Shown one piece after another: positions 33,642 to 37,688 of a DNA stretch of 37,688 bases (positions are counted from its first letter, which is position 1; every line of letters begins with the position of its first letter). The notes beneath the pieces were generated by a model, which saw only the letters and a program-made list of their open reading frames with translations, did no database searches and was not told where the DNA came from. A program made the translations under genes and the position numbers. This DNA is from Bacteroidota bacterium (GTDB taxonomy: Bacteria > Bacteroidota > Bacteroidia > M30B66). The stretch is taken from positions 1 through 37,688 of the forward strand of contig CANHIS010000028.1 of the NCBI GenBank assembly GCA_947460255.1, read 5' to 3'.

Positions 33642-34025
33642 TTACATTACCTTCATCAGGTATTCTAGGAATTCTTTGCGTAGTTCATAGAATGTTGTTC
33701 GGAATTGTCCTACTCTATCATTCAAATCAATCGGCGTTTCATGGCGGCGATGATCCGCTGCAATTGGATTGCTCTGAATTTCCTCGGTGATTTTATCTTC
33801 CAAATGAACGATCTCACCCTGCATATCAAGCAAGTGATTTTTTTGAATGATCATTTGATTTTGGAAGTGTTCGGCATTGGCCAAAACTTCAACAGCTGTA
33901 TTTTTCGATACAACTTCTGCAATGCGTTTTTCCATGATCATCAATTCATCCTGATAGAATGAAATGAGGTTAAGCCATTCGCGGTTCGTGCGGTGGATGT
34001 CGGTAATTAATGAGGTCTTGATCAT
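33642..34025 (-). CDS. Small helical, coiled-coil protein of unknown function
   Basis: Protein of 127 residues with no signal peptide. It is mostly alpha-helical with heptad-like stretches (SFYQDELMIMEKRIAEVV, NHLLDMQGEIVHLEDKITEEI), and ends RTTFYELRKEFLEYLMKVM. A His/Arg-rich patch ADHRRHE interrupts the helices. I do not recognise the family. A GACTTTTG box (34051-34058), one base off the promoter consensus, lies 25 nt upstream, so it may have its own promoter downstream of the LysE gene. Confidence 0.7.
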   Translation of the reverse strand: MIKTSLITDIHRTNREWLNLISFYQDELMIMEKRIAEVVSKNTAVEVLANAEHFQNQMIIQKNHLLDMQGEIVHLEDKITEEIQSNPIAADHRRHETPIDLNDRVGQFRTTFYELRKEFLEYLMKVM

Positions 34026-34117: not shown

Positions 34118-34747
34118 TCAAATGGAATTCAATATCAAGTATAAACCAAAGAGCATAATGATGAATCCTGAAACGCGGTTCACAACCAATAAACCTGCAG
34201 GATTAAGGAAACGCTTCAATTTCAAGGCGAGATAAATTTTCGCTATGTCGATTCCAAAATAGGTAACAAGAGTAACCAAAAAGAATACTGCTACCGGAAA
34301 TTTCTGTCCATGAAACGTGGCAAAAGCAACTGTAGCAGCTCCAAACCAAATGAACAAGACAGATGGGTTGAGTAAGTTGATAAAAAAGCCCTTCAAAATT
34401 AGCCCAGTGGGATTTAGCTTCCCAACTGCTTGCATTTCGCTATCTACAGGGTGTGTGTTTTCTTTAGGTGGATTCACAAACGGAAGTAACCCAAATACGA
34501 TTAAAACGATGCCTCCAATTAAGCCAATCCAATCTTTATACGTTTCGTTTTCTAGAATAATCGAAGCGCCAAAGAATGCAACAACAATGTACAGTAGATC
34601 GCTGAGCAATACGCCCAAATCAAAAAACAATGCGTGCCGAACTCCTTTGCGGATGCTGGTTTGGATTAACAGAAAAAAAACCGGACCGAACGACATGCTC
34701 AGCCAAACTCCTGTGAGAAATCCTTTCCAGATCGCGCCAGTTATCAT
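34118..34747 (-). CDS. LysE-family exporter
   Basis: Inner-membrane protein of 209 residues with about six helices. It shows the LysE/RhtB pattern: WLSMSFGPVFFLLIQTSIRKGVRHAL at the start of the N-terminal half, and GFFINLLNPSVLFIWFG at the start of the second half, with the helix-breaking NPSVLFIW motif. Family members export amino acids and derivatives with the proton gradient. Its ATG overlaps the stop of the GH3 gene by four bases (ATGA), so the two are translationally coupled. The exported substrate is unknown; an amino acid or the product of the GH3 enzyme is a natural guess. Confidence 0.88.
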   Translation of the reverse strand: MITGAIWKGFLTGVWLSMSFGPVFFLLIQTSIRKGVRHALFFDLGVLLSDLLYIVVAFFGASIILENETYKDWIGLIGGIVLIVFGLLPFVNPPKENTHPVDSEMQAVGKLNPTGLILKGFFINLLNPSVLFIWFGAATVAFATFHGQKFPVAVFFLVTLVTYFGIDIAKIYLALKLKRFLNPAGLLVVNRVSGFIIMLFGLYLILNSI

Positions 34748-36279
34748 GCATTTACCGACTTAACAAATTCTTCCCAATCAGCTAATTGCTCTTTCTTCAA
34801 CACTCTTGGAAATTTATTTTGACCGCCTTCTTTGCCCATTTTGCGCATCCAATCGTAAAATAAATCTACAGGGAGCACTTCCAATTTCATTTCTTTTAAT
34901 GCAGATCTACGCTCAACTTTATAATCGTCGTTTAAATCCTTGATGGCTTCATCGAGTCGCACTCTAAACTCTTCTGCATCAATTTCCTGATCACAGCCAA
35001 TAAACCATTTGTGTCCGAAAACCTTGTCGTCTATAAATCCAGCCACACAAAATTCAGGAATTGCCACTCCGAAATGCTCAGCAGCTTTCAATATTCCGTG
35101 GTTCATGTTGTCTACACTCATGTGTTCACCACAAATGCTCAAGTAATGTTTGGTGCGGCCGGTGATGATGATTTCACACGCATCTAAATTGGTAAACCTG
35201 ATTGTGTCTCCAATCATGTAACGCCAAGCGCCAGCACAAGTAGACAATAAAAGCGCATAATCAACTCCTTCTTTTACTTCATCTAAAGTGAGCACTTGGG
35301 CAGATGAACTTAGCGAGCCATCCGAATTGAAGTTGGCTTCATTAAACGGTATAAATTCGTAGAAGATGCCGTTGTTGAGCACCATTTCCATAGAAGTTTT
35401 GCCATTATCACTTTGTAAAGCGATAAAACCTTCTGATGCCAAGTAAGTTTCGATGTAGTGAATCGGCTTGCTCAGAAGATTGTCGAAACCCTTTTTATAG
35501 GGTTCGAAAAACACTCCACCATGCACATAAATCATCAAATTAGGCCAGAGATCGTGAATTGTTTTTAGGTTATAATGCTTGATGATTCGTTCAATTACAA
35601 TTTGAATCCAAGCAGGCACACCAACGATAATTCCAATGTCCCAATCTTTGGCAGCCAACACGATTTCTTCTAGCTTCGATTCCCAATCGCGTTCGCGGGC
35701 AATCTTCTTACCCGGTTTGTAATGCGCTTGAAACCAAAATGGGATTTGTGTGGCATTGATTCCACTTAAATCGCCTTCGTAGTAACTACTTCGCTTTTGA
35801 AGATCTGTGGATCCACCAAGCATGAAGATTCCTTTTTCGAAAAGTTCAGGTGGAAGATCATAGTAAGCCAGCGATAAAATCTGACGAACTGAGGTTCTTC
35901 GCATGCTTCGAATCATAGCCTGAGTTACCGGGATCTTCTTGCTTGGAGCTCCTGAAGTTCCTGAGCTCAATGCGAAATACTGCACCTTTCCTGGCCAAGT
36001 AACGTCCTCTTCACCTTCCAACATTCTGAACCACCAATCGCGGTGGATAGAATCATAGTCGTAAACAGGAACACGAGACTGAAACAGTGCAATTGGATTG
36101 TTACTATCGAGGATTTCTGAAAATCCAAAATGTTCACCAAACGCTGTATCCTGGGCCTTCTTGATTAATTTGAGGAAGGTCTTTTCCTGTTTTTTCACAG
36201 GAGATTGACGTCTTCTTACAATGTTGAGCGTCTTTTGTAAAGTGAGCGCTCGTTTAATTGCTTTCCCAATGAATGCCAT
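34744..36279 (-). CDS. GH3-family acyl-adenylating enzyme
   Basis: Protein of 511 residues in the GH3 family, best known from plants where it links amino acids to auxin or jasmonate by an acyl-AMP intermediate. The three ATP/AMP motifs are seen in order: SSGTSGAPSKKIPVT (105-119), the YASSE-like ETYLASEGF (277-285), and YMIGDTIRF (354-362). The closing helical C-terminal domain (KHYLSICGEHMS onward) is also present. Bacterial members, frequent in Bacteroidota, have no settled substrate. It starts 17 bp after the pseudouridine synthase stop and overlaps the LysE exporter gene by four bases. An acyl-amino acid synthetase feeding an exporter is a reasonable but unproved reading. Confidence 0.9.
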   Translation of the reverse strand: MAFIGKAIKRALTLQKTLNIVRRRQSPVKKQEKTFLKLIKKAQDTAFGEHFGFSEILDSNNPIALFQSRVPVYDYDSIHRDWWFRMLEGEEDVTWPGKVQYFALSSGTSGAPSKKIPVTQAMIRSMRRTSVRQILSLAYYDLPPELFEKGIFMLGGSTDLQKRSSYYEGDLSGINATQIPFWFQAHYKPGKKIARERDWESKLEEIVLAAKDWDIGIIVGVPAWIQIVIERIIKHYNLKTIHDLWPNLMIYVHGGVFFEPYKKGFDNLLSKPIHYIETYLASEGFIALQSDNGKTSMEMVLNNGIFYEFIPFNEANFNSDGSLSSSAQVLTLDEVKEGVDYALLLSTCAGAWRYMIGDTIRFTNLDACEIIITGRTKHYLSICGEHMSVDNMNHGILKAAEHFGVAIPEFCVAGFIDDKVFGHKWFIGCDQEIDAEEFRVRLDEAIKDLNDDYKVERRSALKEMKLEVLPVDLFYDWMRKMGKEGGQNKFPRVLKKEQLADWEEFVKSVNA

Positions 36280-36296: not shown

Positions 36297-37688
36297 TTAG
36301 CTCATTCTGAGCATGATCACTTCTTTTTCGGTTAGGAAACGATAATTTCCTCTTGGTAGATTTTTCTTGGTTAATCCTGCGAATCCTGTTCTATCGAGTT
36401 TCACAACTTCATAACCGAGATGTTCGAATATACGGCGAACAATCCTGTTTTTACCCGAGTGTAAAACAATACCAACTTCATTTTTTGTTTCTTGGGCCGC
36501 CCACGAAATTTCATCCACTTCAATAAACCCATCTTCAAGTTCGAAACCTTCGGTAATCTTCTTCAAATCTAAAGCTTGCAGATTCTTATCGAGAGTTACA
36601 TGGTAAATTTTTCTCACTCCGTGGGATGGATGCGTCAGTCGTTTTGCCAGCTCTCCGTCGTTGGTCATCAACAACAATCCAGTAGTAGATCTGTCTAAAC
36701 GCCCCACAGGATACAATCGCTCCTTGCAAGCTCCTTTAACAAGATCCATCACAGTTTTGCGACCTTCTGGATCATTTGAAGTTGTGATGAAATCTTTGGG
36801 CTTGTTCAGCAACAAATACTGCGGAGATTCTCTCGACAATGTTTGTTCGCCGTATTGGATTTTATCGATTGGGCTTACACGGAATCCTAATGTGGTAACA
36901 ATTTCTCCGTTTACTCGGATAACGCCACTTTCAATCAGTGCATCGGCTTCACGGCGGCTGCAAATTCCTGCATTCGAAATATATCTGTTGAGACGGATTT
37001 TTCCGTCCAACTCTTCAAGTTTCGTTTTTTTCTTTCCTGGCCTTCTTTCTGGCCCTTTGTAAGTAGCGCGCACAAAATCAGGTCGATAACCGCCTAATTC
37101 ATCGCCCTTTTTCTCAGGACTTCCACCAGCACGTTTCAAAATAACTTTATCCAAATCTTGTTTGAAATCTTCTGGATCTAACCATTCGCCTTTTTCGCTG
37201 AACGAATCGTCGTTTTTATTATTCCGTCTTACTGGTCCGCTTCTGCCAGAATATCCGCCTCTACTGGCTGGCTTTTCGGCACCATCGCGCTTAAATGGTT
37301 TTGCATCTTTATCGTCGCGCGATCTTCCACGAAATGGCTTATCACCAAATTCTTTCGGTTTGTCGAAGCGCGGTTTGTCGTCGCTATTAAATTTCCCAGC
37401 TTCTCCCGATTCGGTTCTTGGCCTTCTTCCTCTTACTGGTTTATCATCGCCAAAACGACCTCTTTCTTTGTTGTAGGCTGGGCGGTCGGATTTGAAATCT
37501 GGTTTCGAGCCAAAACCTTCGCCATCCTTGCGTGGACCGCGACGAACTGGTTTTTCATCTGAGAATCGTCCACCTTCTTTTTTGTAAGCTGGACGGTCGG
37601 ATTTGAAATCTGGTTTCGAGCCAAAACCTTCGCCATCCTTGCGTGGACCGCGACGAACTGGTTTTTCATCTGAGAATCGTCCACCTTC
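36297..37688 (-). CDS. RsuA/RluB-type rRNA pseudouridine synthase with long repeated disordered N-terminus, 5' end missing
   Basis: The frame is open to the end of the window (463 residues seen, start outside). The C-terminal ~240 residues are a normal enzyme: an S4 RNA-binding domain (IRLNRYISNAGICSRREAD, IRVNGE) and the catalytic domain with YPVGRLDRSTTGLLLMTNDG (nucleophile Asp) and KNRIVRRIFEHLGYEVVKL. It isomerises a uridine in rRNA, probably of the large subunit. Before it are at least 215 residues of Arg, Lys, Asp, Glu, Gly and Pro with almost no hydrophobic residues. The outer part consists of two nearly identical 37-residue repeats (GGRFSDEKPVRRGPRKDG, then EGFGSKPDFKSDRPAY), followed by degenerate copies. 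Such tails occur in other Bacteroidota homologues and may bind RNA or ribosomes. It heads a run with GH3 and LysE. Confidence 0.92.
   Translation of the reverse strand, partial: EGGRFSDEKPVRRGPRKDGEGFGSKPDFKSDRPAYKKEGGRFSDEKPVRRGPRKDGEGFGSKPDFKSDRPAYNKERGRFGDDKPVRGRRPRTESGEAGKFNSDDKPRFDKPKEFGDKPFRGRSRDDKDAKPFKRDGAEKPASRGGYSGRSGPVRRNNKNDDSFSEKGEWLDPEDFKQDLDKVILKRAGGSPEKKGDELGGYRPDFVRATYKGPERRPGKKKTKLEELDGKIRLNRYISNAGICSRREADALIESGVIRVNGEIVTTLGFRVSPIDKIQYGEQTLSRESPQYLLLNKPKDFITTSNDPEGRKTVMDLVKGACKERLYPVGRLDRSTTGLLLMTNDGELAKRLTHPSHGVRKIYHVTLDKNLQALDLKKITEGFELEDGFIEVDEISWAAQETKNEVGIVLHSGKNRIVRRIFEHLGYEVVKLDRTGFAGLTKKNLPRGNYRFLTEKEVIMLRMS
37471..37688 (-). repeat. Near-identical 111-bp tandem repeat in coding sequence
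   Basis: Copies at 37471-37577 and 37582-37688 are offset by 111 bp. Ninety-five bases (37483-37577 and 37594-37688) are identical; the only changes seen are two transitions near the low-coordinate end. The unit is 37 codons, so gain or loss keeps the reading frame. The array runs out of the window. Confidence 0.9.

Follow-up and report, generated by a model that had tools for sequence, protein, structure and literature searches.

The window analysed here, 37,688 nucleotides of a Bacteroidota genome (contig CANHIS010000028.1 of assembly GCA_947460255.1), carries two intact, overlapping genes, one for a GH3-family enzyme with the conserved motifs and predicted fold of plant acyl-acid amido synthetases and the other for a LysE-family exporter, and the pairing of these two genes recurs across the class Bacteroidia. 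The mechanism that fits this arrangement best, and to which we give an even chance when it is taken as a whole chain, is that the GH3 enzyme makes an N-acyl amino acid and that LysE exports or flips the same product.

Organization of the locus

The GH3 gene (34744..36279, minus strand) runs from ATG to TGA and encodes a protein of 511 amino acids; the lysE gene (34118..34747, minus strand) encodes 209 amino acids. Both open reading frames are uninterrupted and, as read directly on the coding strand, the stop codon of the first and the start codon of the second share the four bases ATGA (34744..34747, minus strand), which confirms the initial annotation of a complete GH3 gene running into the start of lysE. 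Such an overlap is consistent with translational coupling of the two genes.

The co-directional gene located 17 nt upstream of the GH3 gene (36297..37688, minus strand, the open reading frame being cut by the contig end) encodes an RluB/RsuA-type S4/pseudouridine synthase and is probably the first gene of the operon. The N-terminus of the synthase is extended by a long series of repeated units rich in Arg, Lys, Asp and Gly (37155-37688, minus strand), itself truncated by the end of the contig. Downstream of lysE an open reading frame of 127 amino acids (33642..34025, minus strand) has no family match, is conserved only within the family to which the window belongs and probably lies outside the GH3-LysE system. 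The source genome (4.13 Mb in 246 contigs, 97% complete) encodes two more GH3 proteins on other contigs.

Conservation of the GH3-LysE gene pair in Bacteroidia

A first survey covered GH3 orthologues in 40 related genomes and found LysE encoded directly downstream at nearly all loci of the same family and at most of the more distant ones. Cultured relatives with the linked pair include Algoriphagus, Rhodonellum and Chryseosolibacter. From a scan of 84,980 species genomes the best-scoring 80 named Bacteroidota/Chlorobiota loci were taken; two lay at a contig edge, and at 67 of the 78 evaluable loci LysE adjoined GH3, either downstream on the same strand (59) or convergently (8, an arrangement of Spirosomataceae-type genomes), with the remaining 11 being without it. 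An even sample of the class comprised 197 genomes, 104 with a GH3 of the window type and 93 without. LysE was encoded directly downstream of GH3 in 69 of these 104, distributed over 22 of 37 families, elsewhere in the genome in 26, and was absent from 9. Since this LysE subfamily is usually represented by a single-copy gene, its position next downstream in 69 of 104 genomes puts the gene order far beyond chance. The initial annotation had regarded the coupling as a useful clue to function, one that would lose its value if LysE were rarely adjacent to GH3 in Bacteroidota; the pairing survived the survey of gene order, which gives this clue strong support.

Clustering of the neighbours at 115 GH3 loci placed LysE adjacent at 87, followed by YggS (30/115), RluB (17/115) and others in smaller numbers, each of them lineage-bound. 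The retention of LysE at so many loci, set against neighbours bound to particular lineages, indicates that the pairing is not simple synteny. RluB is such a lineage-specific neighbour, and its presence at those 17 loci only ruled it out as a component of the GH3-LysE system. Among same-strand pairs of a wider locus set the exact overlap of 4 nt was found in 25/78 and gaps of 30 nt or less in 69/78. The GH3 and LysE distances in linked pairs were correlated (r = 0.75, n = 78; none of 1000 permutations gave a value as high), as expected from joint inheritance, and a correlation of this kind also follows from shared descent. No LysE gene was adjacent to Bacteroidia GH3 paralogues among those scanned of the 28 other GH3s. 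Judged by the lengths of their open frames, none of the GH3 matches is a GH3-LysE fusion; long GH3 frames in two genomes (G068 and G171) were rejected as fusions, having the look of spurious open reading frames of G+C-rich DNA.

In the GH3 tree the window clade has LysE-linked members down to its deepest branches, which makes the linkage look ancestral in that clade and separated later on repeated occasions; well-supported branches require the unlinked state to have changed at least 13 times within the clade. Of the 93 sampled genomes that lack a window-type GH3, 40 encode a member of the LysE subfamily, which in some orders of the class is nearly universal and persists where that GH3 is missing. 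Flavobacteriaceae-type genomes carry lysE between unrelated genes resembling those for RNase R and FolB. At one Cyclobacteriaceae-type locus (L149, genome G112) with the usual YggS-GH3-LysE order GH3 is missing, and YggS and LysE are still in place. This locus and the GH3-free genomes rule out a strict dependence of LysE on a window-type GH3. Because LysE is found apart from GH3 or without it, the partnership is common, not obligate. LysE thus either has a role of its own where a window-type GH3 is lacking or finds a partner in another GH3 group, the latter being conceivable because the other two groups are near-universal in the class. The neighbours looked at beside unlinked lysE genes included no replacement acyl ligase; they resembled RNase R, FolB, PurF, a PaaE-type reductase, MtgA and others (all judged by eye except MtgA).

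The GH3 protein is predicted to be an acyl–amino acid ligase

The window GH3 exceeded the cut-offs of 23.6 bits of the three Pfam models for the family (PF03321/PF23571/PF23572), with scores of 102, 58.8 and 46.6 bits for the N, M and C models. Its three nucleotide-binding motifs are SSGTSGAPSK (residues 105-114), ETYLASEG (277-284) and AGAWRYMIGD (349-358). In an alignment of 23 orthologues, 41–88% identical to the window GH3, these motifs are kept as SSGTSxxxSK, ETYLASEG and AGAWRYxIGD, and the serines S106 and S282 are invariant. An AlphaFold2 model (pLDDT 80) gave plant GH3s as its first 28 matches in the PDB (E from 1e-22 to 9e-15, TM about 0.6), the top one being JAR1 (4epl, E 1e-22), and a profile search of the PDB with the same protein likewise returned plant GH3s only. 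The window GH3 thus has the fold and motifs of the plant acyl-acid amido synthetases (JAR1, GH3.12, GH3.5 and others), from which it differs in sequence (14–17% identity); the plant enzymes act on plant hormone substrates and have no exporter partner.

The statement of the initial annotation that no function is settled for the GH3 proteins of bacteria now holds only in part. OlsH of Singulisphaera acidiphila, a GH3-like lyso-ornithine-lipid synthetase characterised in 2025, makes N-acyl-ornithine from a free C14–C18 fatty acid, ATP and ornithine (PMC12493201; NCBIfam NF052613). OlsH and the window GH3 have in common their family, their length, the three nucleotide-binding motifs and the essential serine: S106 aligns with OlsH S115, which is essential there, and S282 aligns with S293, which tunes OlsH activity (PMC12493201). 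An ATP-dependent acyl-amino acid ligation like that of OlsH would therefore be expected of the window GH3, and the best reading of the protein, drawn from these relatives, is an ATP-dependent acyl–amino acid ligase. It was rejected as an OlsH itself, with 359.9 bits against the cut-off of 620 of NF052613; two more bacteroidal GH3 groups that were tested scored 405-446 bits with this model, above the window GH3. The genetic context differs as well: OlsH shares its operon with OlsI and OlsG, and the window GH3 is flanked by RluB and LysE. The OlsH paper contains no mention of LysE or any other transporter (PMC12493201).

Bacteroidia have three groups of GH3, of which the window GH3 represents one; in the tree a branch with 100% support sets its clade apart from the 28 other GH3s. 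A second group includes the GH3s of loci L029, L031, L032 and L001; at the first three of these the gene lies next to a deoxynucleoside kinase gene and one for a conserved beta-propeller-like protein, a conserved context distinct from that of the window GH3. Two records labelled as plasmids, of Bacteroides finegoldii (NZ_OY725904.1, L219) and Parabacteroides distasonis (NZ_OY725756.1, L220), bear acpP-fabF-rnc-pfkA-GH3 together with further housekeeping genes and look like chromosome fragments carrying plasmid labels.

The transporter belongs to no substrate-defined LysE subfamily

The LysE protein of the window matches the Pfam family PF01810 (80.7 bits, cut-off 25.6), as do all 45 linked relatives (45/45, E up to 0.001), and its structural model is that of a helical transporter (pLDDT 86.7); a search of the PDB with this model found no structural relative. 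Like the LysE/RhtB and GAP/SfLAP exporters, it is a small, all-helical membrane protein. None of the cut-offs of the NCBIfam models for RhtC, LysE and ArgO (288, 214 and 298 bits) was reached, the scores being 42, 22 and 14 bits, respectively, so that the nearest curated models, those of threonine/homoserine exporters, are matched at scores far under their cut-offs. The score with the SfLAP model (PF11139) was 34.6 bits, the cut-off being 35.0, and 5 of the 45 linked relatives matched it. GAP family lipid exporters belong to the LysE superfamily (PMC4608589). By these sequence comparisons the window transporter is a LysE family member that falls in no substrate-defined subfamily. Free amino acid export would be possible, since its nearest models are threonine/homoserine exporters and most linked LysEs have no SfLAP match.

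Lipid context of the GH3 genes

Four lines of evidence favour a lipid acyl substrate for the window GH3, the first being the analogy with OlsH. The second is a protein of 848-849 amino acids in which an OlsE-type fatty acid/ornithine-lipid hydroxylase and a GH3 are naturally fused; three Bacteroidia genomes, from two families, encode it (loci L180, L181 and L182 in G024, G320 and G232; also L177:299-2845). The OlsE part scored 200 bits with NF052566 (cut-off 475), the GH3 part is complete and of a lineage different from the window clade, and the fusion is a candidate single-chain amino-lipid enzyme.

The third line is the distribution of other aminolipid genes in the even class sample. OlsF-type genes, assigned by length as open frames of at least 500 amino acids, occur in 2 of the 104 genomes with a window-type GH3 and in 50 of the 93 without, a near-exclusion with a raw p of 3e-18 and a family-level p of 3e-4. 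GlsB-type genes show the opposite distribution (62/104 with and 14/93 without). As a control for kinship an IspG tree of 141 genomes was used, from which genomes lacking IspG, including the exceptions G089 and G280, were left out. On this tree 10 independent pairs contrasting OlsF and GH3 gave no pair in which the two changed in the same direction and about three in which they changed in opposite directions, as exclusion would have it, without reaching significance (median p 0.25), so that as a proof of replacement the near-exclusion fails and is a lead only. The OlsF contrast is weakened by shared ancestry and, as evidence for a lipid acyl substrate, is suggestive only. Independent pairs for the co-occurrence of LysE with GH3 pointed in the same direction as the raw counts (median p 0.25), as did GlsB and GH3 after phylogenetic control, there too without significance. 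Single in-frame stops were seen within the IspG (gcpE) matches of G190, G271 and G291, all three of family f68, and of G203, G219, G252 and G279. Frameshifts or mis-set ends could account for these stops, or they could be genuine.

The fourth line is an absence: the domain PF13444, which we take to be the N-acyltransferase domain of OlsB, GlsB and OlsF, is missing from the genome of the window and from five other sampled genomes of the same family, so another enzyme must start such lipids there, if they are made. The glycine-lipid synthases GlsB/GlsA and the ornithine-lipid synthase OlsF of Bacteroidota presumably yield the same class of product as the window GH3, N-acyl amino acid lipids, but they are acyltransferases unrelated to GH3 and use another chemistry.

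Proposed mechanism and alternatives

In the mechanism that we propose GH3 would activate a carboxylic acid with ATP to an acyl-adenylate, as reasoned from OlsH and the plant GH3s; the acid would most likely be a fatty acid or a fatty-acyl compound, a donor to which the lipid context points. An amino acid would then receive the acyl group on its amine, which would yield a lipoamino acid (N-acyl amino acid). LysE, produced from the same message by translational coupling, would carry this product out of the cell or across the inner membrane to its outer side. The weakest step is the one that makes this product, and not a free amino acid, the cargo of LysE. The initial annotation had proposed that the pair makes and exports an acyl-amino acid, and this stands as the best-supported mechanism, in which we infer both substrates and the cargo of LysE. 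Its second suggestion, that an excess acid is cleared as a conjugate, found no positive evidence here.

The weakest step is where the main alternative departs. The aminolipid made by GH3 would stay in the membrane, and LysE would be an overflow valve for the free amino acid substrate, co-expressed with the enzyme without having its product as cargo. The RhtB-type threonine/homoserine exporters that are the nearest curated families of LysE speak for this alternative, as do the near-universal occurrence of LysE in some orders, its persistence without a window-type GH3 and its location between unrelated genes in Flavobacteriaceae-type genomes; however, it does not readily account for the tight linkage, in a wide range of contexts, of a substrate exporter to an enzyme that uses up that substrate. 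We regard it as doubtful, though with an appreciable share of the probability.

A conjugation of small or aromatic carboxylic acids by GH3, with LysE expelling the conjugate in detoxification or signalling, appears unlikely. The GH3s of solved structure, which are the best structural matches of the window GH3, all come from plants and have auxin, jasmonate or benzoates as substrates. The nearest known precedent for the gene arrangement, iaaL–matE of Pseudomonas, places the gene for an acid-amino acid synthetase (the IAA-lysine synthase IaaL) beside an exporter gene (PMC4544800, PMC7074806). The likeness is in the synthetase–exporter arrangement; MatE is a MATE transporter, of a family unrelated to LysE, and the hosts are plant-associated bacteria. 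Against a small-acid substrate, none of the neighbours at the 115 loci indicates aromatic or auxin metabolism, and OlsH, the sole characterised bacterial GH3, takes fatty acids. That the adjacency is inherited synteny of little functional meaning is likewise unlikely: the two genes are separable, as the forced changes in the tree and the occurrence of each without the other attest, but the other flanking genes have all been exchanged several times with LysE retained, even convergently in Spirosomataceae-type genomes, and RluB, equally close in the window, has been kept at a small minority of the loci.

A further reading concerns the Gly-Ser lipodipeptides, which include flavolipins, lipid 430/654 and doreamides. 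The GH3s of Bacteroidota may include a ligase that adds serine as the second amino acid to N-acyl-glycine, the window pair being a version that makes such a lipodipeptide or a lipoamino acid and flips or exports it; we consider this improbable as it stands. According to a paper of December 2025 the serine ligase gene is not known and is probably located outside glsAB, and a search of six peptide-bond Pfam families gave no candidate, GH3 (PF03321) being outside the six (PMC12746155). The co-occurrence of the window-clade GH3 with GlsB-type genes and the presence of a GH3 paralogue in Bacteroides and Parabacteroides are in favour of this idea; against it, GlsB is absent from the genome of the window itself, where acyl-glycine would therefore need another source.

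Significance

No prior description of the GH3-LysE pair was found in the literature searched, which consisted of open-licence papers. Bacteroidota hold almost 90% of the bacterial homologues of OlsH (PMC12493201), and although GH3s are abundant in this phylum, the one bacterial GH3 known to be characterised is that of a planctomycete. The bacteroidal GH3s are candidates for missing steps of amino-lipid synthesis, such as the serine ligation in flavolipins. A GH3 subgroup tied to an exporter across the class offers a handle both on the products of these enzymes and on the way in which lipoamino acids may leave the inner leaflet.
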